From Muribaculaceae bacterium Isolate-104 (HZI) (GTDB lineage: Bacteria > Bacteroidota > Bacteroidia > Bacteroidales > Muribaculaceae), in assembly GCA_003762715.1 (NCBI GenBank), contig RIBJ01000045.1:1-39740 (forward strand): a stretch of DNA of 39,740 nucleotides, read 5' to 3'. How positions within the stretch are numbered: the stretch's first letter is position 1; each line of letters opens with the position of its first letter. The notes beneath the pieces were generated by a model that worked only from the letters and a program-made list of their open reading frames with translations, had not been told where the DNA came from and ran no database searches. This document shows positions 101-14,465 of this stretch, piece after piece. Both the position numbers and the translations under genes were made by a program.

Positions 101-120
101 GTCCACAATTTTTAGTGGAC
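101..120. terminator. Hairpin between converging genes
   Basis: GTCCAC (101-106) and GTGGAC (115-120) form a perfect 6-bp stem around an A/T-rich 8-nt loop. It lies between the forward tail ending at 87 and the minus-strand TerB-like stop codon (112-114), which falls in the loop. A possible bidirectional terminator; the flanking T-runs are weak. Confidence 0.4.
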
Positions 121-774
121 ACACATGTTGTTACAGAGTAAATCCTTGCAGAAAACACCAGTTGTCATCTTCATAAGTGACTTATAGGCATTCTCTATAC
201 CAGACTCGCTCATTGAAGGAGCGAGGAATGAAAGTATCTGATGAAACAGTTTAGAGTCAGTGTCTTGATAATGTTCAATTATCTTAGGCGGATATACGAA
301 GTGGAAGCCGGCCAGCTGAAACTCTTTGAACAGCGAGCGATAATTCTCACGTATTGCCTCATTGGTAGCGGCATCATAATCACTCTCGATATAAAGTGAT
401 GTTGCTATGTCGATATTAAAACTTGCCTTGGGAATAGAGAACGTCTCAACCCTGAAAGGTTGTTCCGAGTCAAGCATCAATATCAGTGCTATCAATATCA
501 GTGCTTCGGAATGAGCGCAGAAGCCATCGCTCACGGTCATTGAACGGCAATCGCTCAATAGGTCTTCTTTCAAGCCCTGAACACCGGAATTGCAAATAGA
601 TACCAATGCGTCAGAAAAAGACAAGTATTGCGCTTCTGTTTCGATTTCCTTGTCAATAGAATATTTTGCGCAAACCCGATTCCAGCATTCCATCTCACCC
701 GTATCAATGATACGGTCAGCTTTAATCAAGTCTGCAAATATCCGGGCGATTGCTATTTTATGAACCCTTAGCAT
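112..774 (-). CDS. TerB-like protein, last gene of the cargo operon
   Basis: This 220-aa soluble protein resembles the helical TerB/TerB-like fold. Near the N-terminus is a segment of the type IARIFADLIKADRIIDTGE, matching the family pattern of a hydrophobic helix, an acidic D/G turn and a following Glu. A second similar unit, DGFCAHSEALILIALILMLD, starts near residue 83. TerB proteins are metal-binding and act with TerC/TerD proteins near the membrane in stress and phage-inhibition phenotypes. The C-terminus is Cys-rich (three Cys in the last dozen residues) and may bind metal or form disulfides; this is inference. It follows the lipoprotein gene by 23 bases and closes the ten-gene operon. 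Family assignment is by motif only, and the middle of the protein is unassigned. Confidence 0.6.
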   Translation of the reverse strand: MLRVHKIAIARIFADLIKADRIIDTGEMECWNRVCAKYSIDKEIETEAQYLSFSDALVSICNSGVQGLKEDLLSDCRSMTVSDGFCAHSEALILIALILMLDSEQPFRVETFSIPKASFNIDIATSLYIESDYDAATNEAIRENYRSLFKEFQLAGFHFVYPPKIIEHYQDTDSKLFHQILSFLAPSMSESGIENAYKSLMKMTTGVFCKDLLCNNMCVH

Positions 775-797
775 TAACTGTTAATAGAAAGGAAAGG

Positions 798-1391
798 TTA
801 CTTCATGAATTCAGACTCTGAGATTTCGATAGTCCCGAAACTATTCTGAAGTTCACTATCCACGACATTTATTTGAAGTAGATAATTCACTACGTTTGAA
901 GAGTTCTTTTTCCCAAAGTCAAAAATGTCGGTACTCCTATCGTAAGTTACGTTTGAAGTGAATTTGGCGTTAAGAGTTCCGTTTCCATTGTCATACTCCA
1001 TCCAATCTTTACCATACGCTAACTTCAGATAATATTTGCCTTGTGGAATCATCTGAATATTTGCCGATGAGTTTTCTGGTACAAAAACATATCGGATACA
1101 TTTATCTGTAGCAACATCCATTATTTTTATTGCTACATCACATCCTTTACCAATCCCTATATCAAAGTAATTGTCCTGCTGGCCAAATTTGCTTTTGACT
1201 CCATATTCTTTTGGCAACTCTCCCGATGGTTTTATCTTTGGAATATACCAGCCTTCGCTAATGAGCTTATTTTGAGAATCTGATAGTGTTATTGTCTCTG
1301 ATTGGTTATTAGACACATTATTAGCACATCCGCCAATAGTTATAGAAACGAATACAACGAGTAGTGAAAGTAGTATCTTATATGTTTTCAT
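798..1391 (-). CDS. Predicted lipoprotein of the Ter-like operon
   Basis: This 197-aa protein starts with a lipoprotein signal peptide: basic MKTYK, a hydrophobic core, and a lipobox ending TIGGC with the lipidated Cys near residue 22, followed by an Asn/Ser-rich linker. The mature part looks beta-rich, with alternating aromatic/hydrophobic strands and a KYYLKLAYG segment, suggesting a small periplasmic or surface beta domain. I do not recognise the family. Its start codon overlaps the stop of the small membrane gene upstream (shared bases 1389-1390), so the two are translationally coupled. The operon therefore encodes two lipoproteins, this one and the vWA-like one at its head, suggesting an envelope-facing module. 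Confidence 0.65.
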   Translation of the reverse strand: MKTYKILLSLLVVFVSITIGGCANNVSNNQSETITLSDSQNKLISEGWYIPKIKPSGELPKEYGVKSKFGQQDNYFDIGIGKGCDVAIKIMDVATDKCIRYVFVPENSSANIQMIPQGKYYLKLAYGKDWMEYDNGNGTLNAKFTSNVTYDRSTDIFDFGKKNSSNVVNYLLQINVVDSELQNSFGTIEISESEFMK

Positions 1392-1564
1392 TGAAAAAGG
1401 GATGTCAAATAGTTAAGAATACACACAACTATAATTGCTATGCCAATTATTCGGCACAACATAGCAATTGCTTTTTTGTATGATTTCTTTTTCACCATAT
1501 CATTGGTCAGGATAGGAACCACCAACCATACTACAAGACCGATAATTATAGTTATTATGCTCAT
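1388..1564 (-). CDS. Small two-TM membrane protein (58 aa)
   Basis: Translation from the ATG at 1564 gives a 58-residue protein starting MSIITIIIGLVVWLVVPIL. It has two hydrophobic helices (about residues 3-19 and 38-53) separated by a Lys-rich loop (KKKSYKK). Its TGA overlaps the ATG of the following lipoprotein gene, the typical sign of a real operon member. It fills what would otherwise be a 247-base gap in a tightly packed operon. No family is recognised. By the positive-inside rule the loop would be cytoplasmic with both termini outside. Start and frame are supported by coupling and composition, not by homology. Confidence 0.65.
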   Translation of the reverse strand: MSIITIIIGLVVWLVVPILTNDMVKKKSYKKAIAMLCRIIGIAIIVVCILNYLTSLFQ

Positions 1565-1638
1565 ATATTTGATAATAACATAGGTGAAGAAGTTTTGTCA
1601 TTGACTCCACTCCTTCACCTATGTGATATTAGGAATGA

Positions 1639-2214
1639 TTAGAATACGCCTTCACGTTTCAGTTCATTTACTCGATTTTGAATCGGCTGATATTTTGCGC
1701 CAAGTTTATCTTTACGTTCCTGACCGATACCATACTCACCACGGATAACTTTTATCGCCTCTGCCTCAACATCATTAGAGACTGATGCTGATTCTGTAGC
1801 TTTTGGTTGTGTTTGTTCGGTCACAACGTTCGTTACAGGAGCTTCAGCTTTAGGCTCTGCAGCGGGTTGTTCAGTCTGAGTTGCTTCGGATGCTTCTTCG
1901 GAGTTGGCCTCATCTTGAACACCTTCAGGTTGATCAGTAGCTTCATCAACACTTTCAACGGCTGAGACCTCTTCTACAACCTCTGTTTCGGTTTGAGCAG
2001 GTTGCTCTTTTTCCGATTTTGAGAATAAGAAGTATCCGATGATGCACAGAACAATCACGCCAACTACCCACCAAATCCATTTGTTGGACTTGGAGTTTTC
2101 CGGCTCGAGAGTAGGAGTTGACTCGGGCTTAGGCGCAACAACAGGCTGAGGTTCTTCTTCAACCTTCTTGCGAAGTTGAACCTTGTGCTTGAGTTTTACG
2201 TCCGAATTGGCCAT
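1639..2214 (-). CDS. Single-TM protein with CW_7-like cell-wall-binding C-terminus
   Basis: This 191-aa protein has four parts: a basic N-terminal motif VKLKHKVQLRKK (residues 6-17), a Pro/Glu spacer, one TM helix at about residues 47-66 (WIWWVVGVIVLCIIGYFLF), and a long Glu/Pro/Ala/Thr-rich linker of about 80 residues. The C-terminal 40 residues carry the pattern VIRGEYGIGQERKDKLG followed by QNRVNEL. This matches the consensus of the CW_7 (Cpl-7) repeat, which binds peptidoglycan in phage and bacterial lysins. A cytoplasmic basic tail, membrane anchor, flexible linker and wall-binding tail would tether the operon's cytoplasmic machinery to the cell wall. The N-terminal motif is shared with the TerD-like neighbour, whose stop overlaps this ATG by one base. 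CW_7 is assigned by pattern only. Confidence 0.65.
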   Translation of the reverse strand: MANSDVKLKHKVQLRKKVEEEPQPVVAPKPESTPTLEPENSKSNKWIWWVVGVIVLCIIGYFLFSKSEKEQPAQTETEVVEEVSAVESVDEATDQPEGVQDEANSEEASEATQTEQPAAEPKAEAPVTNVVTEQTQPKATESASVSNDVEAEAIKVIRGEYGIGQERKDKLGAKYQPIQNRVNELKREGVF

Positions 2215-2795
2215 CAGTCTTCACAAATGAGAGCAAAGCCGGGGATTTCGTCGAACGCCTTACCGAGACTCATAACTCGGCTTTCATTCTTAAGTGCGAA
2301 CTCACCACCTTTGTTCTTGATTGAACATACGCAGTAAACGTGACCTTCATCTGATGAGTCAGCGAGTACTTCCAGATAGTCACCGCTGTCGCTCTTGACT
2401 TCGATACGACCGCCTTCTTCAGCGTAAGTAACATCGTCTCCTTCGATAGCAGCACCGTAATTGACGATGCAAACGAAAGCCTCATCTATGTCATCAAGTT
2501 TGGCTATATTGATTTGTTCGCTTTCTTCACCACCGGGAGCGGGTTCCTTGTTGTCCCCGAGATGGAGCATGAACGGGAACTTTTCGAGTGAGCCAAGGTC
2601 ACTCTTTTTCTGACGGTACTCGTTGGAGAATACGCCACCTACTTCACCGTCTTTCTTACGGAAGAAAAGACATAAGTCGAGGTCTGTGTCTGAGGTCCAG
2701 TAGAGGTTGACCTTGAGTTTTCCGCCAAAAGTGAAGGCGGCTTCCTCCTGCTTGCGGCGGAGGGTAATTTTCTTTTTAAGTTTTACTTCTGCCAT
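2214..2795 (-). CDS. TerD-domain protein
   Basis: This 193-aa protein has a TerD/CABP-like beta-sandwich. The core starts near residue 25 with KLKVNLYWTSDTDLDLCLFF, the family signature: a beta strand followed by an acidic D-x-D-L-D loop that binds Ca2+ in TerD homologues. Later come the conserved GGEESEQINIAKLDDIDE segment (near 88-105) and further strands. TerD proteins are associated with tellurite, phage and colicin resistance and with membrane stress. The first 15 residues (AEVKLKKKITLRRK) precede the domain and resemble the N-terminus of the next gene product, so they may be a shared docking or membrane-surface peptide. It overlaps the next gene by one base and follows the TPR gene by 12. 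The family call is fairly safe; the function here is inferred. Confidence 0.8.
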   Translation of the reverse strand: MAEVKLKKKITLRRKQEEAAFTFGGKLKVNLYWTSDTDLDLCLFFRKKDGEVGGVFSNEYRQKKSDLGSLEKFPFMLHLGDNKEPAPGGEESEQINIAKLDDIDEAFVCIVNYGAAIEGDDVTYAEEGGRIEVKSDSGDYLEVLADSSDEGHVYCVCSIKNKGGEFALKNESRVMSLGKAFDEIPGFALICED

Positions 2796-2807
2796 ATTGT
2801 TATGTTA

Positions 2808-5291
2808 TTAAAAATTGAAGTCATCGTTAGTTGTACGTTTGGTTGGTTGATGATCTCCAACCCGATTTGAGTTATTGTCAAAGAAGTCATCAGTCTTCTT
2901 TGGAGTAATAGAATTTGTTCTCTTTTGCTGCATATTCTGTTTAGCTCTTTTGGGAGTTTCAGGAATAGCAAAGAATTCATCTTCTGTGTTACTTTCAGAT
3001 TGGGGTGAGTTAAACCCTATACGTGTACGTTTAGGAGTCTCAACTGTAGTATGCGCCGTAGCACCTCCGAAAGAAAAGATTTTACGTCGTAAGTCTTTTA
3101 CGGTAGCTTGTTCAGATGGATAATTTTGAGCAAACCTGTTTAGCTCAACTTCTGCCTCATTCATTCGCTGGTCTAAAATCAGCTTATTTATGGTTGCAAG
3201 GGCTTTTTCTTTAGCTTCTCTTACGCGGGTTTCTTCCAGTCGTTTTTTTGCCTTCAATAAGAATTGTGACACTAAATTATCCGATGATATACTAAGATAG
3301 TTCTCGCAGAGTAATTTGAGTTTAGTCCAATCCTCATCATAATGTGCCTTGTTTATGTCTTCCTTGAGCGCTGCAAGTTTACGCTTATTTTCATCATGTT
3401 CTTTACGAAGGGAAATGAGCCGTTCCTTTTTTGAAGTCCATTTGGAGAGATTGGCTACATCTTCCTCTATTAGAACTTCGCAAATCTGAATTGCCGCATC
3501 AAAGTCATTAGCAGCCTCCGACTCCCTCAGTCTTGCCACAAACTCCTGAACTTTCTCTTCTTGCTTAGAACGCACATCCGAAATACGACGCTTTATGGAT
3601 TTAGCCTCTGCATTTGAAGGGTCAAGATTAAGTACTTTGCCCACTTCCTCAAGAGCCTCGTCATAAAGTTTTTGAGCAAAAAACATATCCGCACGATTAA
3701 GGAAATTAGTTACTTTTTCCTTAATATCAAGTTGACGCTTAGAGTCGCGTTTGATTCGTAGTGCTTCCTCAGAATCTGGACGCAGTTCCAATGCCATATC
3801 ACTTTGAGAAATGGCATCGTTCCATCTACCTTCGGAATAAGCATTTTTTATTCTTTGAAGAATAGTTGAAAAATGCTTATTATTGGCTCTTTGCTCCGCG
3901 AGTAATTGTTGAGCGAGAGCTTGTTTCTCTTTGGCATATTCATCATCGGGATGATGAGTTAACGCAATTCCGGCCCACTCACGCATATTTTCGTAGTCAT
4001 GTTCACTTTCGTAACGTTCTACGTTTTCTATCGCGTTCTTATATTCCTTTTCAGATTTCAGAGCAGCATCTTTCTTTGCCTGCTCTTCTTGAGCAGCAGC
4101 CATTGCAGCCTCCTTTCGTGCCGCTTCTTCTCTTGCATGACGATTAAGTTCCTCCTGAAGTTTTGCATCTTTTACAAAATCCTCAGTTGCCTCCTTAAAC
4201 TGAGCGCAATCGATTTGTGCATAAACACTAACTACTTTAGGCAACTCAACTTCACGATATTTCACAAGCTTATTCTCACTTACTATGAACTTACTGTTTA
4301 TAGCAGCTGAGAATTTTGTATTTGTAAAGGTATTGCCGATGAATACAATACCCTCTATTTCGTGAGATTTAACATTGTTAGAGCGCACAAAATCTGCAAT
4401 TTTACGAACAATTTCGTCAACTAATCCTTCAGTACGCTGGTCTAAATCTATTGGTTTGATAGGTACAGTGTAAGGATTATTGGGAGCAACTGCAAAAGTG
4501 ATATTGGGCAGACTCACGGGAATACCCGGACGACGGTTCGCAATTTGGCTCAACCAATTATCTGCAAATCGTTCCTGTCGTTTGTATTCTTTTGCAAATT
4601 CGTCTGACGTTGATAAGAATCGTGTTGTTCGGTTTATGTTCTCAACAACTGATTCAATCAAAGCTCTTTTTCTGACATCAAGTCCAAAGCCGAGCAAAGT
4701 TGACTCGTTTACTCTGACAAATAGATTTTCTACCGACTTATACAAAGAGAAGTGCATGTTGTCATTGGTCGCAACAAGCACAAGATACATTCCGGGGGTA
4801 GTGAATACTCCTCGTTTTTTCGATTCCTCGAGACCAAGATGAGAAATTCGTGCAACGCTCTCGATAACATTGAAATTCGCCTCTTCCAGTTCTTGAAGGA
4901 ATTTCCAACGTGCTACGTCAGAGATGTCGGCAGAGAATGAGATATATGTATCTACTTTCCCCTGTTCTTGAATAGCCTCATGAAGATGACTGAAGATATT
5001 AGCCACTTTGAATATCTCTCTCATCTCCTCCGGCCGATTGTCATAACGAGTGAAATGGTTGTCGTCAGACTCTATCAATGGGAAAATGTCACCGAAATAA
5101 TGCGGTTCCTTATCTCTATAATTGTCCTCAAACGTTTTTCCGTAAACTATTCTATTGTTTGCAGTATCTTCATGGAAGAACAACCATACGCGATCCTCTC
5201 CATTTGGCAAAGTGAGGGGTATCACGTTACCGTCGATGTTGACGGCAACCGTGATGAACCATTTGTCTATATATAGAGAGAGTGATTTCAT
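2808..5291 (-). CDS. Degenerate ASKHA-like / coiled-coil / TPR scaffold protein
   Basis: This is an 827-aa protein. Residues 1-365 look like a diverged Hsp70/actin-fold (ASKHA) domain: an opening SLYIDKWFITVAVNIDG strand pair in the phosphate-1 position, and near 315 IEGIVFIGNTFTNTKFSAAI, which resembles the adenosine-motif region of Hsp70s. The catalytic Gly/Asp motifs are eroded, so it may not hydrolyse ATP. Residues 375-430 form an Ala/Glu/Lys coiled coil. Then come TPR-like helical pairs to about 740 (for example GRWNDAISQSDMALELRPDSEEAL and KLYDEALEEVGKVLNLDPSN). The last 80 residues are disordered, with repeated TPKR/TPKK and acidic-Phe motifs (DEFF, DDFF, NDDFNF). It sits between the large ASKHA gene and terD, with gaps of 9 and 12 bases. 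A scaffold role is inferred; the ASKHA reading is tentative. Confidence 0.6.
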   Translation of the reverse strand: MKSLSLYIDKWFITVAVNIDGNVIPLTLPNGEDRVWLFFHEDTANNRIVYGKTFEDNYRDKEPHYFGDIFPLIESDDNHFTRYDNRPEEMREIFKVANIFSHLHEAIQEQGKVDTYISFSADISDVARWKFLQELEEANFNVIESVARISHLGLEESKKRGVFTTPGMYLVLVATNDNMHFSLYKSVENLFVRVNESTLLGFGLDVRKRALIESVVENINRTTRFLSTSDEFAKEYKRQERFADNWLSQIANRRPGIPVSLPNITFAVAPNNPYTVPIKPIDLDQRTEGLVDEIVRKIADFVRSNNVKSHEIEGIVFIGNTFTNTKFSAAINSKFIVSENKLVKYREVELPKVVSVYAQIDCAQFKEATEDFVKDAKLQEELNRHAREEAARKEAAMAAAQEEQAKKDAALKSEKEYKNAIENVERYESEHDYENMREWAGIALTHHPDDEYAKEKQALAQQLLAEQRANNKHFSTILQRIKNAYSEGRWNDAISQSDMALELRPDSEEALRIKRDSKRQLDIKEKVTNFLNRADMFFAQKLYDEALEEVGKVLNLDPSNAEAKSIKRRISDVRSKQEEKVQEFVARLRESEAANDFDAAIQICEVLIEEDVANLSKWTSKKERLISLRKEHDENKRKLAALKEDINKAHYDEDWTKLKLLCENYLSISSDNLVSQFLLKAKKRLEETRVREAKEKALATINKLILDQRMNEAEVELNRFAQNYPSEQATVKDLRRKIFSFGGATAHTTVETPKRTRIGFNSPQSESNTEDEFFAIPETPKRAKQNMQQKRTNSITPKKTDDFFDNNSNRVGDHQPTKRTTNDDFNF

Positions 5292-5300
5292 ATTATCACG

Positions 5301-8300
5301 TTATTGATTAAAGACCTTGCGAACGAGGGATTTGAGGAAACAAGCACCCTCAGCTATGATAATAGGCTGGTGATAGTGGAATCCATCGCCATTCTTACTA
5401 TTACGTGATGCTTTCTTGTATTCCTGATCACTTGTACAGAAAGGTATAATCCTGTTGGGAAGATCATCGAGTTCATCACGAAGTTGCTCGTCAGCCTTCT
5501 TATAGAGATTTGTCCGCTTGCTTACAAAATCAATGAATAAATCCATATATTTCTCAAAGTTTTGAACCCCTGAGAAATCAAAATTACTCATATCGTCAGC
5601 AAACTGGTCTCCTGTAATTTCTTCATCTGGAGCTATGGAGATATTGATACCATCACGTAGGAATGTTACGCCGGTTTCACCACATATATCCGAATCTGAC
5701 AGCGTTGATACTACTGCAAGTTCTTTCTGCTCACAAAGTCCTCTTGCAACTTCAGTCTTGTTATCGTTCTCAATTTCCTCACGATATGTGACTTTCACAT
5801 TACTCTCGGGCATTACGAGTTTTAGACCTGTGTTTACACAGTTATTGTAGAACTCATTCGTAGTTCGTGTGCTTGTTGCATGACGTAGCCAATGGAAGAT
5901 GCGACCACCTTTGCCGAAGGGGAGCAAATCCACTTTCTCAATATTGCCAAGACGATTCTCCTTGATTGACTTACCAATGAGCATTCCTGAATAGAACAGC
6001 AACAAGCCGCAGACATAAGCCGGTATTGTGAATACGAACTTGGCGTTTGCTGCCAACGAATCGTAGAATACATCATATTCTTCCTGAGTTTTGAGCTGGT
6101 CAAAGATATTGTTCAAGAAATATGGTGCTTTATCCGGATGAGTAAGAACATCCTTTATATTTTCTACGTGGACATTTGTATTATGTCCTTCGTGGAAGTC
6201 AACGAGGGCTTGACGGAATTGCTCTGATTTAATAACTGCATCAAAGAATACTCCGGCAGCAAGGCGGACAGAACTTTCTCTAAAGAGAGAAGGCTTATTG
6301 CTGTCTTGTGGGTTCTTTGCGATTAGTAAGATATCACTAGTACTTCCGCCGACGTCTATTCCAAGGAACATGTTGTTTCCGGATAAACCGAAATCCTGTG
6401 ACATTGCATAACTGCAAACAGCCTCCGCTTCTGTGATAAAATCACCTGGAAGTTCCGGCTTGCGACCAAATGGCGTAATTTTACACAAGTCTTCATAAAT
6501 TCTTTCCAGTTCGTCTCTGTCAGATGGCATCATTGAACCCGGAAAACTCCAGAAAATTTCTTCTGGTCGAATACGGTTTGTATAAAGGAAAGCACAGGCT
6601 TGAAGCCATATTGATTTGAGGAAAGCTCTTTTCTTTTCACGACCTTTGTCATTGTCAAGCCACTTCATATTGTAATGAAGTGTACCTGCCTGAGTCTTTA
6701 TTTCAAACTCGTTCATTTCTTGAACTCGCACATTCGGTCTGTTCACCGGAACGCCTCCGGCGACTTCCTCCGATTGATTGGGGCCAACATAGCGTGAGTC
6801 GTGTTCATGAAGCCAAGATTTGAGTTGTCCGTTCTCAGAAGGATAATTTGTGAAGAACAAGAGTTCGTTATTCTCAGCCACAGCACGTTTGTCGTTATTT
6901 TCTCGTCCTACCAAAACGGCGCGGTAGTTACCAAAGACCATTGGCCTTGCACCACGGTCATTGGCATTGTAGAACAGACAGGTGTTATTACTGCCAAAGT
7001 CCACACCAACTACTGCCGGCGAGTTCATATCAACTGATGTCAAATCCTTGACAACATCTTGACGCATCATTAAGAATCCAGCCCCCATTGTCTTGCCCGT
7101 AACACGAACAACTGCATAAAGGCCGCACATAGGCTTATTGGAAGCAATGATATTATATTTCGGTAGATTATCACTTTGTCCACTCGGGAATGTCACGAGT
7201 TTCTTAATATCTACCTGCTTTTCCTCTTCAGGAGTAGGTTCGTAACGCGAAGTCAAGAACTGACCATCAATAGTTTTAAGTATCTCACCCTTTGTCTTAT
7301 ACAATGGCAAGAACTGTTCTGTATCAGTGTCCGTGAATTCTGAGAATAGGTAATACTTGTTCCATTTCTCTGAAACGAAGTTTGGCCAAGCGATAACCTT
7401 ACCTTGATTCTGAACCCAGTGAATGTTGTACTCGCGGTCGTTTAGAGTAACACTTTCACCATCAATCTCGACTACCAACGATACACTGAGCATCCCGGCA
7501 TCGGTAAGATGACAGGTCAATCGTGTATTGGAGTTTCCACTATATCCGAGAATAGTGTCAAACTTATTTTGGAAAATGTCTATGCCAATTTCAGACAATG
7601 GAACGCTGAAATAGAATGTTTCACCTGTCTGAATATCATTGAACGACAGATAGTAAACTGGCGAATCGGAAAGTTTTGGACGCTGTGCTTTAGGTTCAAT
7701 CCAACCTACAACATATTCATCACGACTAAGAAGTTCTTGAATATCTCCGATGGTCTGATAATCACCTTCATTCACATAAGTGAAAGTGAAATCCGGTTTT
7801 AGATATACCGGCACATCGCTCTTGAATAGCCCGGCAAATGGTTCTTGAAGACCACCGTATTGTGCAACGGGTCCAACTTTCTTCAAACCATTACCTTTGT
7901 CGGTAAGTTCCTGCTCCCACTTACGGGCCATTCCCTTGAAGCCGGAAAGATTGATTGTCTTTTTCCCTCCTCGCTGAGAGTTAATCATAGTCTCAAACTG
8001 TGCAACATTTTTATTCAAGTTCTGAATAAAAAGAAATACTTTCTGTAGTTGCTGGGGAGTTAGGTAGCGAGTAGGATCCTCAAATTTACCATTTCTATAC
8101 CAATTGATATCTGAAGCGGTATCGCCCAATCCTGAGTAGTTGACCCCGGTGAAAACTCCTGTTAATGGCGATGTTCCACCGACAAGTTGATTGCGGTAGT
8201 AAATCAGATGTACAAAAGGTTGTGCATCAGGATTCTTTGCCAGTTCCTGTTGGTTAGACCACACGTCTTTGTCATCAAATAGCATCCTGCCAAAAGCGGA

Positions 8301-8681
8301 GGCTATCCCATAGTCATCACCTTTTATATTCATGTGAACCGGAGCAGAGAATCGTATGCGGTCGGGATAGAGTGCTATTGTGGCTAACAACCCACGCCAT
8401 TCACCATGAAGTATCTCATAGAAATTGAGAAGTCCTCCATTATCAATATTGGGATTAGGATTGTTTATTGTATCAAGAGCATACTTGAATAGTTTGGCTC
8501 GAGCCCACGGAGAAGGCACACCAGAGATGAGTGCACTCAAAGTCTGGGCATTTACATTGCCGAGAATGTCGCCTGTCTGGATACCCTGAATATAGGAATT
8601 CGCCATATTCAGCTCATTCCATTCACCTTGTGTTCCGGTGTTCAGAGTGGTGTAACTCTGGATGAGAAGTGCTTTAGACAT
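5301..8681 (-). CDS. Large Hsp70/actin-superfamily (ASKHA) ATPase
   Basis: In this 1126-aa protein the C-terminal half carries ASKHA motifs: phosphate-1 GVDFGSNNT (559-567), a connect-1-like FITEAEAVCSYA (749-760) and phosphate-2 GIDVGGSTSD (774-783). Unlike the neighbouring scaffold protein, these nucleotide-binding residues are intact, so ATP binding is likely. The first 550 residues precede the ATPase and match no family I can name; they may be the effector or partner-binding part. The general shape recalls very large SrfB-type Hsp70-like proteins, but I cannot show homology. It is 8 bases from the tubulin-like gene and 9 from the TPR gene, so it probably forms a complex with both. It is the largest gene of the operon. 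No signal peptide or TM helix is visible, so it should be cytoplasmic. Confidence 0.7.
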   Translation of the reverse strand: MSKALLIQSYTTLNTGTQGEWNELNMANSYIQGIQTGDILGNVNAQTLSALISGVPSPWARAKLFKYALDTINNPNPNIDNGGLLNFYEILHGEWRGLLATIALYPDRIRFSAPVHMNIKGDDYGIASAFGRMLFDDKDVWSNQQELAKNPDAQPFVHLIYYRNQLVGGTSPLTGVFTGVNYSGLGDTASDINWYRNGKFEDPTRYLTPQQLQKVFLFIQNLNKNVAQFETMINSQRGGKKTINLSGFKGMARKWEQELTDKGNGLKKVGPVAQYGGLQEPFAGLFKSDVPVYLKPDFTFTYVNEGDYQTIGDIQELLSRDEYVVGWIEPKAQRPKLSDSPVYYLSFNDIQTGETFYFSVPLSEIGIDIFQNKFDTILGYSGNSNTRLTCHLTDAGMLSVSLVVEIDGESVTLNDREYNIHWVQNQGKVIAWPNFVSEKWNKYYLFSEFTDTDTEQFLPLYKTKGEILKTIDGQFLTSRYEPTPEEEKQVDIKKLVTFPSGQSDNLPKYNIIASNKPMCGLYAVVRVTGKTMGAGFLMMRQDVVKDLTSVDMNSPAVVGVDFGSNNTCLFYNANDRGARPMVFGNYRAVLVGRENNDKRAVAENNELLFFTNYPSENGQLKSWLHEHDSRYVGPNQSEEVAGGVPVNRPNVRVQEMNEFEIKTQAGTLHYNMKWLDNDKGREKKRAFLKSIWLQACAFLYTNRIRPEEIFWSFPGSMMPSDRDELERIYEDLCKITPFGRKPELPGDFITEAEAVCSYAMSQDFGLSGNNMFLGIDVGGSTSDILLIAKNPQDSNKPSLFRESSVRLAAGVFFDAVIKSEQFRQALVDFHEGHNTNVHVENIKDVLTHPDKAPYFLNNIFDQLKTQEEYDVFYDSLAANAKFVFTIPAYVCGLLLFYSGMLIGKSIKENRLGNIEKVDLLPFGKGGRIFHWLRHATSTRTTNEFYNNCVNTGLKLVMPESNVKVTYREEIENDNKTEVARGLCEQKELAVVSTLSDSDICGETGVTFLRDGINISIAPDEEITGDQFADDMSNFDFSGVQNFEKYMDLFIDFVSKRTNLYKKADEQLRDELDDLPNRIIPFCTSDQEYKKASRNSKNGDGFHYHQPIIIAEGACFLKSLVRKVFNQ

Positions 8682-8689
8682 ATCCTATA

Positions 8690-10297
8690 TCAATTAAAGT
8701 TATATAGTTTTGTGAGTGTATCGTAGATAAGTTTATACAACTGCTCTCCTCGGTTTGTGATTCCTTTACTTCCTTCACCATGAAGTTCTTGCAGGAACAA
8801 CTTTTTGAAACTGTTGAACTTACTTCCAAACATACCGGTAGAGTACTTGTTATCTTTACCAATGCCTTCATTCCGATAGAGGTTCTTGTTCCAGTCAAGT
8901 TTCATCAGTTCCTTCCGAGACTGTGGAGCAAATAGTTTCGGGTTAAGAAGGAATTTATCCCCACCACCAGCTGAACGGTGAAGTTGACGGAGCCACCCTT
9001 CTTCCAAAGCTCCTCCTTCAATCATACGAGCGAAGAATAACCGGAAATAATCTTTAAGATATTTAACCTGCGATGGATCTATTTCCTCAAATCCTACGAC
9101 CTCCTTGTCTTCTCCGGAGCGGGCTTTCTCTACGAAATCGTCTTCTCCATTGTTAAACAACGCGAATGCTACAAGGCAACCAAGTTTCTTAGCAAATTCA
9201 GTCTGTCTTTCCTTTCCGACAAAGTCTTGAAAATCGAATTTGTCATTATCCTCAACGGCACGATAAAGATACTCTGTTTTATAGTTGTCCTTATCTTGTT
9301 GTAGCTTGTCCTCGTCAGTATTCAAGAAATCAAGAGCCGCGCTTGCAGCAAGCAATTCTATATAATGCGAATCGTTCTTTTGTTGGGATCCCCCCGTAAG
9401 TGTTTTGTTGGAGCTTTTATCTTCAGTCTGCATAGGGTTCCAATTTAAGCCATCAGTGCCCATCATATAGAAACGCTGATAAATGCTTCTAACAGTAGCA
9501 TCATCGTCATAGAACATCATTGCCACTTGCGAATTAAGCGCAAACTTGTCACTTGTAGCAATAATCTTCTGTTGGCTTATTTCTCCAGCTGTAGGAAGAG
9601 TAAAATTAAAATATGCTGTAAGCAACGTAGAACCGAAATAGGCATTTTTCAAAATATCCGCACTACCATTGCTTATGATTTGTGCGGCACGAGACAAAGC
9701 CTGTGGAATAATGGGAATAGAGGAAGCCCCTGTGCCACCAAATACTGATCCAAGGATAAATACCTTAGCCTTCCCGGAGGTTGTTTCCGTAATAAGTGCA
9801 CTAACAAATTCCTTTAGACCATTGGGAAGACGTGATTTAGAAGCCTCTACGATGGACTGATACATCATCATCGAACCCAGATGGGTTTGTGCGCGATAAC
9901 CATGTTGAAGATTAAACTCTTCAACATTACGGTCAAGCACAAGGTCTGCTAAATCAGTTTCCTCGCGGTGGTTATACTGAGTGTCTCCATAGTTGAAGAC
10001 CTCTTTGAATGTACTTTTTGTTTCATAGTCCGGAGAGAACTCGTAATATTTTATGTTTGCTGAGAAGAAAGTTTCTTTATGCGCAACACGACTTTCTGCT
10101 TTGAGGCCCTTAGCGTTGACATAAGCTTCTTTCAACTCTTTGAGACGCCCGAAATTGCCATTGTTTTTATCAGTATCGAGTGCGAGAAGATGAATATCCG
10201 TGTCATCGAACATTCCCATTGCACAAAGGTGAATAAGGCTTTCTATGCACCTCATGCCTGTACCGCCTATTCCGAGGACAAAAAATTGTTGTGCCAT
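8690..10297 (-). CDS. Tubulin/FtsZ-like GTPase
   Basis: This 535-aa protein shows the hallmarks of the bacterial tubulin-like family (Pfam 'Tubulin like' type). They are an N-terminal nucleotide loop VLGIGGTGMRCIESL (residues 7-21), a following beta strand LLALDTD (37-43), and the tubulin signature loop FILGSVFGGTGAS (180-192), equivalent to the GGGTGSG phosphate-binding loop. A Tyr/Phe-rich helical C-terminus follows. Such proteins may polymerise or act as GTP-dependent switches. It is not housekeeping FtsZ: the length, loop sequence and operon are wrong. Co-transcription with an ASKHA ATPase (8-base gap) and a 3-TM protein (3-base gap) suggests a membrane-linked complex with two NTPases. 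Fold assignment is fairly secure; polymerisation and function are not known. Confidence 0.8.
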   Translation of the reverse strand: MAQQFFVLGIGGTGMRCIESLIHLCAMGMFDDTDIHLLALDTDKNNGNFGRLKELKEAYVNAKGLKAESRVAHKETFFSANIKYYEFSPDYETKSTFKEVFNYGDTQYNHREETDLADLVLDRNVEEFNLQHGYRAQTHLGSMMMYQSIVEASKSRLPNGLKEFVSALITETTSGKAKVFILGSVFGGTGASSIPIIPQALSRAAQIISNGSADILKNAYFGSTLLTAYFNFTLPTAGEISQQKIIATSDKFALNSQVAMMFYDDDATVRSIYQRFYMMGTDGLNWNPMQTEDKSSNKTLTGGSQQKNDSHYIELLAASAALDFLNTDEDKLQQDKDNYKTEYLYRAVEDNDKFDFQDFVGKERQTEFAKKLGCLVAFALFNNGEDDFVEKARSGEDKEVVGFEEIDPSQVKYLKDYFRLFFARMIEGGALEEGWLRQLHRSAGGGDKFLLNPKLFAPQSRKELMKLDWNKNLYRNEGIGKDNKYSTGMFGSKFNSFKKLFLQELHGEGSKGITNRGEQLYKLIYDTLTKLYNFN

Positions 10298-10300
10298 AGT

Positions 10301-10687
10301 TTAGTTCTTTTTCTTGCCCAAGATAGAGCCTAATTTAGTATTGCGAAACCCGAGCATCAGCAGGATGCCGGCAACAAAATATATAACTATGGAGACAAGA
10401 AGAACCTTAAGATTTGTCTCTTCAAACATACTCTGAAAACCGGGATTGGAGATTTTCGGGACAATGGCTTGCATATTGTAGAACCAATAAGCGGCGGGCA
10501 TAACAAGACCGATTACGATAAAACAAATACGACGAGTGATGAAGTCGCGGCGATCGCTTCTCCAATTTATGATGAATGCAATAGCAATAGCCAATGCAAG
10601 CGCTATGCCGCAAACGATTAGTCCGTACACCCAAGCATCGGCTTGTGTCTGTTGTAGCTGAAGTGGAGTTCTAATGATGGTATTCAT
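10301..10687 (-). CDS. Three-TM membrane protein
   Basis: This 128-aa integral membrane protein has three hydrophobic helices at about residues 20-41, 52-70 and 93-114. A basic loop (NWRSDRRDFITRR) follows the first helix, and the C-terminus is basic (LGKKKN). By the positive-inside rule the loop and C-terminus would be cytoplasmic. No family is recognised. It lies 6 bases after the vWA-like lipoprotein gene and 3 before the tubulin-like gene. It is a natural candidate for linking the periplasmic lipoprotein to the cytoplasmic NTPases; this is inferred from order and topology only. Confidence 0.7.
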   Translation of the reverse strand: MNTIIRTPLQLQQTQADAWVYGLIVCGIALALAIAIAFIINWRSDRRDFITRRICFIVIGLVMPAAYWFYNMQAIVPKISNPGFQSMFEETNLKVLLVSIVIYFVAGILLMLGFRNTKLGSILGKKKN

Positions 10688-10693
10688 TGCTTT

Positions 10694-12046
10694 TTAGTAT
10701 TTGTCAGATTTAACGTAGATAGTGTAGAGTGTTTTACCGTTTAATTGCTTTAGCAATTCCGGGTCAAAAACACAGTTTTTCAAGCTTTCGGATATTGACT
10801 CGTTGGTTGTACCACTTTGGACGATGGAATCGAAATTAAACATATCAATACTGTTGCCGAGGATGTTTTCAAGTTCTTTTACCGATATCACAATCTTAAA
10901 GTAATTGAATGGCTTACCATTAAGCACCGGAGCAAAATTGTTGATGTCAAAATAAAGGTCAACATTCCCATGTTGCTTGAACTCCTTAGTATCAGCTATG
11001 ATGAAATTTGGAATTTCCATGGGCTGTATTTCAGTATGACCAACCTTTTCTCCAGACTCTATACGATTGTATATGTCAAAATAATCATTGTTAATGTCAT
11101 ACACCTTTATGTCTATATCCTTAATGCGATAGCAACCGAAGGCATTTTTATTGATTTTAAGACCGCCGATAAGCTTTTCCCCATTGAGGAGTGGACTCCC
11201 TTGCTCATCTACGCCATTCATTATGAAATTCAAGATGTTTTTCCAATTAACTTGCCAGTCCTGAATTTCCATAGGACCATATCCTTTAAGCTCGGCGGCA
11301 AGCACTGGGTTGGGAATAGACGTAATACCATTCTGTGTTACTGCCCATGGGTAATTTCCGCTAAGATGAAACTCATCAATTTGAGGGAAATCTTCCAGAT
11401 TAACCACTTCGCTTATTCGGCTATAAATATTGCCTTCAAGCCGGTCATCGGTAAAGATGATGTAAAAACGTTTCTTGTTAAATGTTTGCCCTTTGTACAC
11501 TTCTTGATATGGTTCTGCAATGATATGGATGTCATGTCCTTTAAGCAACCATTTCTTAAAAGCTGCGTGCATATATGGGTTATTGGGATTGTTCTTGGTC
11601 GCCGTTTGAGTAAAAAGCTCTCCATCCGTAAGCATTACAGACTCTCCATCTCGTTCTGCCATCAGATTGATAGCATTGTCAAGGGCTGCATAGTCTTCTT
11701 CTTTAACATTATTCAGCAATTCAAAAACTTTTCCATCCTCCTTCTGAATGTCTTTACCCTTGATTGACCAATATTCTTTAGTGGCTGCTGTAAGAGGGGA
11801 CACCATCTTCTGATAAAATGGTGAGGACATTCCTTTTGCGATGCAGTTAGAATAATCCACAAAAAGCGACAACTGATTATTAGGCAAATCTGTATTTTCC
11901 ACATCTTCTGTAAGGACATGGAATTCAGCCATATGATTAGTGTCATAGGGAACATTGTCCTTCTTGCAAGACACGAATGATAATCCGGCAATGAATATGC
12001 CGATTACAGCTACTATCAGAAGCGATATTTTGTTATGGTATGTCAT
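10694..12046 (-). CDS. vWA-like lipoprotein, first gene of the cargo operon
   Basis: This 450-aa protein has a lipoprotein signal (hydrophobic residues 7-24, lipobox LSFVSC, Cys27). After it comes a domain that looks like a von Willebrand A fold: strand LSLFVDYSNC (60-68) with Asp64 and Ser66 in MIDAS-like positions, strand SVMLTDGELF (136-145) with Asp141, and a later strand HDIHIIAE. The canonical DxSxS is incomplete (D-Y-S-N-C), so metal binding may be altered. vWA proteins recur in Ter-type operons, although usually cytoplasmic; an exported version is unusual. The downstream 200 residues are unassigned. The start codon is 31 bases from the nearest inverted site (12078-12094), so this gene would be the first one switched by inversion. 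The vWA call is motif-based and moderate. Confidence 0.6.
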   Translation of the reverse strand: MTYHNKISLLIVAVIGIFIAGLSFVSCKKDNVPYDTNHMAEFHVLTEDVENTDLPNNQLSLFVDYSNCIAKGMSSPFYQKMVSPLTAATKEYWSIKGKDIQKEDGKVFELLNNVKEEDYAALDNAINLMAERDGESVMLTDGELFTQTATKNNPNNPYMHAAFKKWLLKGHDIHIIAEPYQEVYKGQTFNKKRFYIIFTDDRLEGNIYSRISEVVNLEDFPQIDEFHLSGNYPWAVTQNGITSIPNPVLAAELKGYGPMEIQDWQVNWKNILNFIMNGVDEQGSPLLNGEKLIGGLKINKNAFGCYRIKDIDIKVYDINNDYFDIYNRIESGEKVGHTEIQPMEIPNFIIADTKEFKQHGNVDLYFDINNFAPVLNGKPFNYFKIVISVKELENILGNSIDMFNFDSIVQSGTTNESISESLKNCVFDPELLKQLNGKTLYTIYVKSDKY

Positions 12047-12643: not shown

Positions 12644-13846
12644 TTATAGGGATTTTAGGATTAGGCTGTTGGCTTTGTCAACGACTGAGGTGTCGAGGGA
12701 GGCGAGGTAGATTTGGGTGGTGGCTTCGGAGTCGTGGCCCATGCCTTCGCTGATTACGCTGAGGGGAATGCCCTTTGCTTTGGCTGCACTGGCCCATGAG
12801 TGGCGGGCAACGTACATCGTCAAAGGGATGTTGATACCGACCATACCGGCTATCTTCTTCAAATTGTGATTGATGTTGTAGCCGATGTTGCGGTAGGCAC
12901 ATCGCTCATTGATGCCCTCTGTTTTGATGATGGGCAGGAGATATTGCGTAGGATTGTCGGGATATTTGTCAAGTATGGCTTGCATTTCCGGTGCCCATGC
13001 TATTGTGAGTTGCTGGCCGGTCTTGCGTCGGCGATAAACAATCGAGCCGTTTTTGAGGTCGGTTTTCTTCAGGAATGTCATATCTATGAAACTCATTCCC
13101 CGAAGATAAAAACTCATCAGGAACATATCGCGGGCATAGTCTAATGGCGGGGAGAGCGATAAATCCAATGCCTTGATTTTCTTGATGTGAGGTAATGAGA
13201 TAGCGCGTTTAACTGTTTTATCCACTCCCGTATAGACATGACGGAAGGGATTGCGATTCTCAATTATGTCATCCTCAACTGCCCGGTGATAGACTGCCCG
13301 GAGAATACGGGTGTAGAATGATATGGTGTTAGGGGAATTGCCGCGTTGCTTGTGCCATGCCTCGTATGCCTCCATTATCTCGGAGGTCAGACAATCGAGC
13401 ATGATGTCCTCATCTTTCCGGAACTTTTTGAAGCTGTTGAGGGCGGCGGTATAGGTTTCTGATGTTCTTGCCTTACCATTCTGCTTGAACTTGATAATCA
13501 AGTTCTCCATGAAATTGAACAGTGAGTACTCGCTTGCATATCTGCGGAACTCATCAATTACATCATCGGCAGTATAGGATAAGCCTTCTGCGTCAAGTCG
13601 TTTGTCAATCTTGGTTAGACGCTCAACATCCCAGCGGATTCTCTCGCGGATTGAGAGAATGAAAGATTTTCTTACACTGGATTGTTTGGTTGTTACCATT
13701 GAGCGACTTTCATCCCATTCATCCGGCATCACATGATACTCAGTGTTGAGTTGACGAACTTTCCTTTCGTGGATAATCTGGTAGTAGATTGCACCTTCAT
13801 GGTCGGCAATCGTCGATGGTCGGTATTTTACTTTTATTGAGGCCAT
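12644..13846 (-). CDS. Tyrosine site-specific recombinase (integrase/invertase)
   Basis: This 400-aa protein has three domains: an N-terminal arm-binding region (about 1-90, starting KVKYRPSTIADHEG), a SAM-like core-binding domain (about 105-205) and a catalytic domain. Catalytic residues are visible as R249 (FYLRGMSF), K275 in the YRRRKTG beta hairpin, R348 (VARHSW), H371 (GMGHDS) and nucleophile Tyr380 (TQIYLAS). The usual first His of HxxR is Tyr345. The YLRGMSFID form of box I is common in Bacteroidales recombinases that act on local invertible promoters as well as in element integrases. Four inverted sites lie directly downstream (12078-12585), favouring the invertase role. Alternatively it is the ICE integrase and these are attachment-related repeats. 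It is flanked by terminators on both sides. Confidence 0.9.
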   Translation of the reverse strand: MASIKVKYRPSTIADHEGAIYYQIIHERKVRQLNTEYHVMPDEWDESRSMVTTKQSSVRKSFILSIRERIRWDVERLTKIDKRLDAEGLSYTADDVIDEFRRYASEYSLFNFMENLIIKFKQNGKARTSETYTAALNSFKKFRKDEDIMLDCLTSEIMEAYEAWHKQRGNSPNTISFYTRILRAVYHRAVEDDIIENRNPFRHVYTGVDKTVKRAISLPHIKKIKALDLSLSPPLDYARDMFLMSFYLRGMSFIDMTFLKKTDLKNGSIVYRRRKTGQQLTIAWAPEMQAILDKYPDNPTQYLLPIIKTEGINERCAYRNIGYNINHNLKKIAGMVGINIPLTMYVARHSWASAAKAKGIPLSVISEGMGHDSEATTQIYLASLDTSVVDKANSLILKSL

Positions 13847-13934: not shown

Positions 13935-14465
13935 TTAAGGAAGGAAAAGTGCACCAAGTTCCGTAAGCCTACGGTTATATAACCCTTTGTGCCATTTGCC
14001 TTTGTAGTGGCAGTGGGAGGTGTAGGCTTTGAAGATGTTGCGGTTGCCGGATTTGAGCATTTTATAGACGCTGGACTTGTTTACGGCACCTGGGCCGATG
14101 TTGTAGGCCAATGCTCCGAGGAGGACGCTATCCTTGCCCAAGTCACGGTAGAGGGCGCAGAATTTACGGAGGTCTTTGCGGAGAAGTACATCGGCTTCGC
14201 GCTCACTCATCTTGTAGCCACGGAAGTATTTTTCGCCGGGTAGTTTTCTATGACCATAACCCAAGTAGGGCCAGTGGCGGCGAGAGTCATGTAACGTCTC
14301 AAATTTCTTGATTATGAGAACTGCACGCTCAAATAACGGCAGTTCCATTATGCTTCGTTTTGTGTGTTGCTCCCTTGCGGGGGCAGTTCGCTGTGAGGCG
14401 GCATTGCCTGGCATCGTTCCCACAATGGAGAACAATGCCACAAAGAGTATCAGGAGTTTCTTCAT
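13935..14465 (-). CDS. Conjugation-associated lysozyme (GH24-like)
   Basis: This 176-aa exported protein has a signal peptide (MKKLLILFVALFSIVGTMPGNA). The mature part resembles phage-type lysozymes of family GH24. IIKKFETLHD carries the likely catalytic Glu near residue 56, followed by the YLGYGH motif (66-73) equivalent to the TIGYGH/Thr-loop region, and the ALAYNIGPGAV helix typical of the family. It would locally cut peptidoglycan so the conjugation channel can cross the wall. It overlaps traQ by 4 bases, so it is co-translated as the last gene of the tra operon. A lysozyme gene in this position is standard for CTnDOT-like elements. Confidence 0.85.
   Translation of the reverse strand: MKKLLILFVALFSIVGTMPGNAASQRTAPAREQHTKRSIMELPLFERAVLIIKKFETLHDSRRHWPYLGYGHRKLPGEKYFRGYKMSEREADVLLRKDLRKFCALYRDLGKDSVLLGALAYNIGPGAVNKSSVYKMLKSGNRNIFKAYTSHCHYKGKWHKGLYNRRLTELGALFLP

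Follow-up and report, generated by a model that had tools for sequence, protein, structure and literature searches.

What does a bacterial operon do that encodes a tubulin-fold GTPase, an actin-fold ATPase, a relative of TerD and a peptidoglycan-binding membrane protein side by side? The question is raised by contig RIBJ01000045.1 of Muribaculaceae bacterium Isolate-104 (HZI) (assembly GCA_003762715.1), which was analysed over its full length of 39,740 nucleotides and is referred to below as the window. The window is one whole contig of a 2.84-Mb genome and carries ten consecutive minus-strand open reading frames (ORFs) between 12046 and 112, spaced as described in an initial annotation that was made from the letters alone. 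That annotation proposed a candidate new, mobile, envelope-linked system comprising TerB- and TerD-type proteins, a tubulin-like GTPase, an Hsp70/actin-fold (ASKHA) ATPase and a CW_7-tailed membrane protein, with a role in defence. Comparison with relatives partly confirmed the observation and partly supported its interpretation. The operon is real and conserved, though its composition differs from the first description. We read it, with a probability of roughly 45%, as a modular envelope-spanning stress-response machine, in which a core is joined to an exchangeable Ter module, TerD would be tethered to the cell wall, and an envelope breach or ion entry would be the trigger.

Relatives of the tubulin-like GTPase (TUB) were drawn from whole genomes (13 of the 395 in a phylum sample, counting the genome that holds the window), from a species-level genome collection (the best 80 of 161) and from one viral contig (L014). 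ORFs were labelled with profiles built from the window and chosen seeds. This gave 84 loci including the window, numbered with an L, of which 81 have a labelled TUB; L070, L075 and L083 do not and stand outside the co-occurrence counts, and L015 and L057, which are one contig, are both counted. Locus flanks were 10 kb, by which some operons are cut. A seven-gene order recurs in Bacteroidota: a vWA-like lipoprotein, a small membrane protein (TM), TUB, the ATPase ASK1, the scaffold ASK2, TerD and a single-span peptidoglycan-binding protein. Where the sequence extends 2.5 kb upstream of TUB (63 loci), vWA was present in 53 and TM in 51. ASK1 was found in 56 of the 61 loci with 4.5 kb downstream, and 7 kb downstream was available in 56 loci, with ASK2 in 44, TerD in 34 and the CW7-type protein in 33. 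As this gene order recurs across loci, chance neighbourhood was rejected, and the genes that had been grouped in the window do occur together elsewhere. Two smaller genes of the window belong to families found in some loci, one of 58 residues (15 ORFs in the 84 loci, window included) and one encoding a 197-residue lipoprotein (11 ORFs). Nine genes are complete and ordered in the window, L030, L032, L038, L050 and L058, with one intervening extra gene in L038.

The tenth gene, which had been labelled TerB, is outside the set. Its 220-residue product had no Pfam, NCBIfam or PHROG match, and none of the other 83 loci has an ORF of its family. The distant relatives are for the most part about 400-500 residues long, and the window copy matches just their first half. 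A 462-residue plasmid relative (L130:12941-14329) had no Pfam match, and the single relative with surroundings inspected had no annotated Ter gene nearby. A TerB-like acidic family does occur in seven loci: one 122-residue protein lies just over the Pfam TerB cut-off, a second member has no Pfam match and a third has a UPF0114 membrane domain. At L047:12651-13559, a TerB-family-like acidic N-terminus is fused to a UPF0114 domain, and the gene lies between the small TM gene and a Ca2+-ATPase gene.

Both folds proposed for the core enzymes hold. TUB has the GTP-binding T4 loop and the FtsZ/tubulin fold, and its invariant N308 and E314 are close to where a predicted helix (312-325) begins, at what is likely the place of the T7 loop. 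ASK1 has the Hsp70/actin fold with phosphate-1 and phosphate-2 loops, and its residues 1-545 gave no separate match among the matches listed. The first 400 residues of ASK2 had no profile match to the ASKHA half of ASK1 (E 0.71), and any ASKHA fold there is putative. Pfam, NCBIfam and PADLOC scans covered nine of the ten operon genes, all except the 58-residue gene. The sole Pfam match over cut-off was the CW_7 end of the single-span protein, as the initial annotation had described it; no NCBIfam family passed its cut-off, and PADLOC-DB gave weak matches only, all to the low-complexity part of the CW_7 protein. Profile searches of the PDB with TUB, vWA and the short TerD found nothing significant. 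In an alignment of the vWA-like lipoprotein, Cys27 is present in 42 of 45 sequences and D64, D141 and E143 in all 45. The DxS and TD-x-E motifs are thus conserved, and the hhalign match to vWA is weak (E 5e-4, probability 32%). In two close pairs of loci, vWA and TerD diverge far more than TUB and ASK1. In one of them (L048/L049) vWA is 51% identical compared with 95% for TUB, and this envelope-facing gene therefore looks fast-evolving or separately exchanged.

The single-span protein provides the candidate link between TerD and the cell wall. Its periplasmic end is CW_7 (Pfam-checked in the window, L049, L052 and L088) or OmpA (PF00691; L015, L090, L091 and L108, including Pedobacter; Pfam E 5e-16 to 8e-20). 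One span is predicted, and the segment ahead of it is net positive in 29 of 33 proteins, from which we infer that the N-terminus is cytoplasmic. The start of this wall-anchored protein repeats the N-terminal motif of the TerD encoded at the same locus. KLKKK-type motifs occur with short TerD, FNLSK-type motifs with canonical TerD and a third type in L030, and some wall-anchored proteins have two or three copies. Over 33 loci the same-locus match scored 39.1, compared with 28.6 (standard deviation 1.57) for shuffled loci, and none of 10,000 shuffles reached the observed value. Eight control segments (the middle and end of the wall-anchored protein, both ends of ASK2 and the starts of ASK1, TUB, vWA and TM) gave no signal and TerD residues 60-100 scored 20.9; we therefore rejected the possibility that the match is a general property of proteins of the operon. 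Within the canonical class the match was locus-specific (35.9 versus 28.9, 0 of 10,000), also in the 10 loci that are left when five Pedobacter repeats are taken out (38.7 versus 30.0, again 0 of 10,000). When motifs were crossed within four close pairs, the scores were 12-23, down from 33-59. Identical residues in the matches share a codon in 116 of 276 cases, and 111.5 are expected from locus usage. Same-codon use at the expected level argues that the likeness is at the protein level, and we rejected the idea that the start of TerD was recently copied as DNA into the CW_7 gene. The solved TerD structure 2kxt aligns through the motif segment of a canonical TerD, which matches the start of the 2kxt domain. 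Our reading of these sequences is that the wall-anchored protein is a trans-envelope tether that would bind TerD.

The motif switches together with TerD. On a TUB tree of 39 rows, made by a quick method, TerD class, motif class and ASK2-tail class change five times each. In a concordance set of 32 loci, from which L101 with its split GTPase was left out, the TerD class is in full agreement with the motif and also with the ASK2 tail (32 of 32 each), the motif and tail classes having been set by patterns written post hoc, with the sequences already seen; the tail count leaves out L040, in which ASK2 is split, and L045, L088 and L101 have no tail call. KLKKK motifs pair with acidic-aromatic tails and FNLSK motifs mostly with proline-rich tails; L030, L049 and L109 have neither tail type, and L100 and L103 fall just below the proline threshold. 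The CW_7 or OmpA periplasmic end agrees with TerD class in 24 of 32 loci only. All four independent pairs switch concordantly (sign test p 0.125). In L048/L049, TUB is 95%, ASK1 91% and TerD 30% identical, and tail and motif are switched while the CW_7 end is conserved. In the pair of the window and L030, TUB is 91% and TerD 25% identical, and DNA identity is 37-57% from about 3550 to 1750 and near 70% again at the CW_7 domain. The divergent block of both pairs starts inside ASK2 and ends inside the wall-anchored gene. These limits within both flanking genes suggest that tail, TerD and motif are one cassette and a functional unit.

The same concordance could arise if the shared motif were a short linear motif read by a third part of the same machine, such as the DDFF-type or proline-rich tail of ASK2, and not a mimic for TerD docking. 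That the tail class follows the TerD class throughout, that each motif type has its usual tail type and that some wall-anchored proteins carry several copies all fit such a reader. It fits less well with the three loci that have neither tail type, or with the position of the motif inside the canonical TerD domain, where it may be less free for a third party. We regard this explanation as somewhat unlikely.

The TerD family has solved Ca2+-binding members; long study of resistance to tellurite, phage and colicin has, to our knowledge, not settled what TerD proteins do. In operons of tested relatives, Pfam confirmed canonical TerD (E 8.5e-60), TerC (3e-55, L091) and a cation P-type ATPase. The window's own short protein had no Pfam match up to E 1, thus falling short of the TerD (PF02342) cut-off, and is remotely akin to TerD (hhalign E 1.2e-5, probability 81%; PHROG 5698, E 2e-4), so that the TerD-type label is firm for the canonical relatives and remote for the window. 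A Ca2+-ATPase is present in 14 of the 35 TerD-type loci and TerC in 7 (all Pedobacter), with both in none. Of the TerD-type loci in which the downstream sequence exceeds 9 kb, 20 of 27 have one or the other; the earlier remark that TerC is absent is true of the window and does not extend to these relatives. Of 13 downstream ATPase genes, seven begin at most 122 bases from a labelled operon gene, and the rest are 256-1315 bases off, some with intervening ORFs. In L040, L041 and L044 the ATPase sits 10-54 bases upstream of vWA. As the window operon runs into the contig end, its final part may be missing. Two chromosomal Ca2+-ATPase genes of the same genome, 57-58% identical over the main segments, were considered as that lost end; they lie in other contexts, and the idea was not adopted.

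These partners would also suit a metal homeostasis machine, in which TerD, TerC and the Ca2+-ATPase load or clear divalent metals at the envelope for oxyanion or metal tolerance and have no anti-phage role. TerC-family proteins act in metal transport and in metalation of exported proteins, according to the available text of PMC12096827. We consider this unlikely: the FtsZ-fold GTPase, the Hsp70-like ATPase, the vWA lipoprotein and the peptidoglycan tether seem superfluous to such a task, and elsewhere the same core is joined to genes of quite another kind.

Those other partners are of two sorts. In seven loci of Bacteroidota (L079, L080, L081, L083, L087, L089 and L099) DO-GTPase and GAP1-N2-like genes, labelled with profiles seeded on L087, come after the vWA-TM-TUB-ASK1-ASK2 core, or after as much of it as is labelled on the contig; in L087 itself, Pfam gives DO-GTPase1 with 38.1 bits, over cut-off, and GAP1-N2 with 17.8 bits, under the cut-off of 24. 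In L065, L068 and L072 the same core has kinase and/or PP2C genes, a protein kinase gene being near the core in all three and a PP2C gene in L065 and L068. TerD and DO-GTPase occur together in none of the 56 loci with 7 kb downstream, and the nine scanned window genes had no Pfam match to DO-GTPase or GAP1. In L067, L069 and L105, TUB relatives lie near a 1361-residue gene and have no labelled ASK1 neighbour.

The DO-GTPase loci bear on another reading, in which the operon would be dedicated to defence against phages, as a conflict system of the GTPase/tubulin/HSP70 type, and TerD would sense a second messenger or an ion. Neighbourhoods with tubulin and with HSP70/vWA are among the conflict systems in the available text of PMC7159879, and the marked divergence of vWA and TerD in the two close pairs is in keeping with such a role. 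PADLOC has no family for any core protein, no killing effector was recognised, and the phage data are association only, which places this reading on the unlikely side. A role in defence is plausible: the available text of PMC8123226 connects ter operons with the inhibition of phages and with resistance to colicins, and huge phages carry terD and a Ca2+-ATPase, as if the pair were contested. In the available part of PMC12363816, the Jug huge phages have predicted Bacteroides or Phocaeicola hosts, and each of the three transcribed genomes carries three terD genes; their Ca2+-ATPase is highly transcribed and present in 60.4% of curated genomes, and terD and the ATPase are closest to host versions. 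Among TerD-bearing phage or viral-contig loci, some of them maybe bacterial DNA, 5 of 11 have a Ca2+-ATPase-family gene near TerD (L138, L141, L142, L145 and L146); L142 was taken from a 355-kb contig. In the phage collection a Ca2+-ATPase occurs in 39 records, and the 20 listed are mostly short, unannotated and not trusted.

No TUB relative was found in 50,697 phage records at E 1e-5, and the one viral contig with a TUB relative, L014, also has an integrase and a relaxase gene. No ASK1 was found on plasmids at E 1e-5; TUB does occur on plasmids, in six records of which five are cyanobacterial and the other is from Prevotella. The cyanobacterial plasmids L027 (14520-22803) and L028 (10017-19183) have a TUB relative preceded by a small gene and followed by a weakly ASK1-like one (E 2e-4), and are a possible deep branch of the core. 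The description of the operon as mobile is only partly supported, by 5 of the 35 TerD-type loci, which have an integrase just upstream; a relaxase gene is there in 2, and 30 of the 35, some on short contigs, show no integrase there. A TubZ/ParM-like system that segregates or maintains a mobile element would account for such neighbours. It is very improbable, given the scarcity of integrases, the envelope location of much of the set and the absence of a Pfam-recognised DNA-binding adaptor among the nine scanned genes.

FtsZ and Hsp70/actin folds assemble or remodel proteins using nucleotide. In the envelope-spanning stress-response machine that we favour, the vWA-like lipoprotein and the small membrane protein would face the periplasm, and on the cytoplasmic side the FtsZ-fold GTPase and the Hsp70/actin-fold ATPase would cooperate with the TPR scaffold. 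The C-terminal end of ASK2 may serve as the plug for an exchangeable module, which in the window is the Ter module. TerD would be held at the envelope by the single-span protein, with a cytoplasmic end that imitates the N-terminal segment of TerD and a periplasmic end that grips peptidoglycan. An envelope breach, whether by phage DNA entry, pore-formers or wall damage, would admit Ca2+ or another metal; this would alter the hold of TerD on its tether, and the GTPase/ATPase pair would then assemble at the site. In fuller relatives the Ca2+-ATPase or TerC would reset the ion. A bolder version, which we consider rather unlikely as a whole, is an envelope-breach alarm working by strand mimicry: a Ca2+-binding TerD hub would be clamped to the wall from inside by copies of its own first strand, Ca2+ entry through a breach would change the exchange, and TerD would license FtsZ- and actin-fold assembly at that place. 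Wall end (CW_7 or OmpA), TerD type and downstream module (Ter, DO-GTPase/GAP1 or kinase/phosphatase) would be interchangeable cassettes, and the TerD and Ca2+-ATPase of huge phages that infect the same hosts would blunt the alarm. The gene set offers a concrete, testable candidate for a physical link, from TerD to a peptidoglycan-bound membrane protein via a named motif, for which the natural swap pairs can serve as controls, and a possible reason for gut huge phages to carry TerD and a Ca2+ pump.

Several observations weigh against the stress-response machine. In the short-TerD class, to which the window belongs, the motif match is no finer than between shuffled loci (41.7 versus 41.6, reached by 4,933 of 10,000). 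Beyond the post hoc class patterns, four independent pairs are too few to attain p 0.05, and identity falls off gradually across ASK2 with no sharp break. TerD, ASK2 tail and motif are adjacent in DNA, so that a single block exchange moves all three, and linkage or fast divergence alone may explain the concordance. The vWA and short-TerD assignments are remote. Of the 56 loci with 7 kb downstream, 14 have no TerD, DO-GTPase or same-strand kinase, L065 with its PP2C gene among them. As to the ion, 7 of the 27 TerD-type loci whose downstream sequence exceeds 9 kb have neither Ca2+-ATPase nor TerC, TerC is limited to a single genus in these loci, and the scanned genes of the window operon, whose contig ends 111 bases past the last gene, include neither.

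Features of the operon and its immediate neighbour in the window (positions on contig RIBJ01000045.1)
Feature	Position	Strand	Remarks
vWA-like lipoprotein, 450 residues, probable periplasmic sensor	10694..12046	-	lipobox Cys27; metal ion-dependent adhesion site (MIDAS)-like D64xS66 and T140-D141-x-E143
Small multi-span membrane protein (TM), 128 residues, between vWA and TUB	10301..10687	-	
TUB, FtsZ/tubulin-fold GTPase, 535 residues	8690..10297	-	GGTGAS loop; invariant N308, E314
ASK1, Hsp70/actin-fold ATPase	5301..8681	-	ATPase fold at residues 553-1021, behind a 545-residue N-terminal half
ASK2, TPR scaffold, 827 residues	2808..5291	-	
ASK2 tail, three acidic-aromatic repeats (TEDEFF, TDDFF, NDDFNF)	2808..3074	-	tail type follows TerD class
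Short TerD-like protein, divergent, 193 residues	2214..2795	-	remote assignment
TerD N-terminal motif EVKLKKKITLRRK	2748..2789	-	
Single-span wall-anchored membrane protein: N-terminal motif, span at about 47-65, CW_7 end	1639..2214	-	probable N-inside orientation
TerD-like motif DVKLKHKVQLRKK in the N-terminus of the CW_7 protein	2164..2202	-	
CW_7 cell-wall-binding repeat	1660..1758	-	PF08230, E 5.5e-11
Single-span protein, 58 residues	1388..1564	-	found in some loci only
Lipoprotein, 197 residues	798..1391	-	found in some loci only; 67% identical in L030
220-residue gene, labelled TerB in the initial annotation	112..774	-	no conserved member of the set
Tyrosine integrase of the adjoining conjugative element	12644..13846	-	neighbour, outside the machine

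To the right of the operon, the tyrosine integrase is followed by a Bacteroidetes-type conjugative element (13935-38369) with TraM, a TraG P-loop protein, DUF4138, Toprim/primase, a MobA-like relaxase, a YWFCY/TraG coupling protein and a topoisomerase. A phage-type lysozyme gene lies within this stretch at 13935-14465.

Three known kinds of system and one phage clade resemble the operon in part. It is like ter systems in its TerD family, Pfam-confirmed in tested canonical relatives, in the TerC of Pedobacter and in the TerB-like acidic family of seven loci. It differs from them in that TerD of the window is short and divergent, TerC is absent there and TerB is unsupported, and we know of no ter operon of which a tubulin/Hsp70/vWA core and a peptidoglycan tether are part. 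The Jug huge phages (PMC12363816) are a single clade that has both terD genes and a Ca2+-ATPase, of Bacteroides/Phocaeicola type; there the pair is phage-borne, and in the available text the authors draw no link to a host operon.

The FtsZl1/Tubulin_2 (PF13809) operons of Makarova and Koonin (2010, PMC2875224) likewise place an FtsZ-like protein beside vWA, membrane and OmpA-family genes; a point of difference is the long coiled coil with which FtsZl1 is described. Those authors proposed a cytoskeletal membrane-remodelling or vesicle machine, and the same combination of tubulin-like, vWA, membrane and OmpA-type genes in these loci could be read in that way. The available account of FtsZl1 includes no Ter part, Ca2+-ATPase or Hsp70-like part, and the window TUB scores 10.1 bits against Tubulin_2, under the cut-off of 27 and thus outside that family, the cyanobacterial relative L027 passing with 40.8 bits. 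Membrane remodelling is therefore quite unlikely as the function here.

Kaur et al. (2020, PMC7159879) described tubulin, HSP70/GrpE, vWA and kinase/PP2C themes in GAP1-N2 GTPase-centric systems, for the most part from other phyla, which they called conflict systems. The likeness lies in the recurrence of tubulin, HSP70, vWA and PP2C/kinase parts in such neighbourhoods and in the seven loci that join our core to DO-GTPase/GAP1-N2-like genes. The window differs in having no DO-GTPase or GAP1 match; in the available text of that paper the tubulin theme is placed in Firmicutes and Actinobacteria, the tubulin and HSP70 themes are non-overlapping, and its main text contains 'tellurite' and 'calcium' 0 times and TerD once, in a separate section. 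We found no paper joining TerD to such a core in the literature searched; Anantharaman et al. 2012 on Ter systems was outside that scope and may mention the linkage. The description of the system as a new candidate should be narrowed, since tubulin, vWA and membrane operons (PMC2875224) and tubulin/HSP70/vWA conflict systems (PMC7159879) are in print. One exchangeable core in this way joins three literatures, on ter, on FtsZ-like operons and on tubulin/HSP70 conflict systems. As the core occurs with alternative partners and the tubulin, vWA and HSP70 themes are published, we conclude that the window operon is a Ter-coupled variant within the tubulin/vWA/Hsp70 systems, for which a conflict role has been proposed before.

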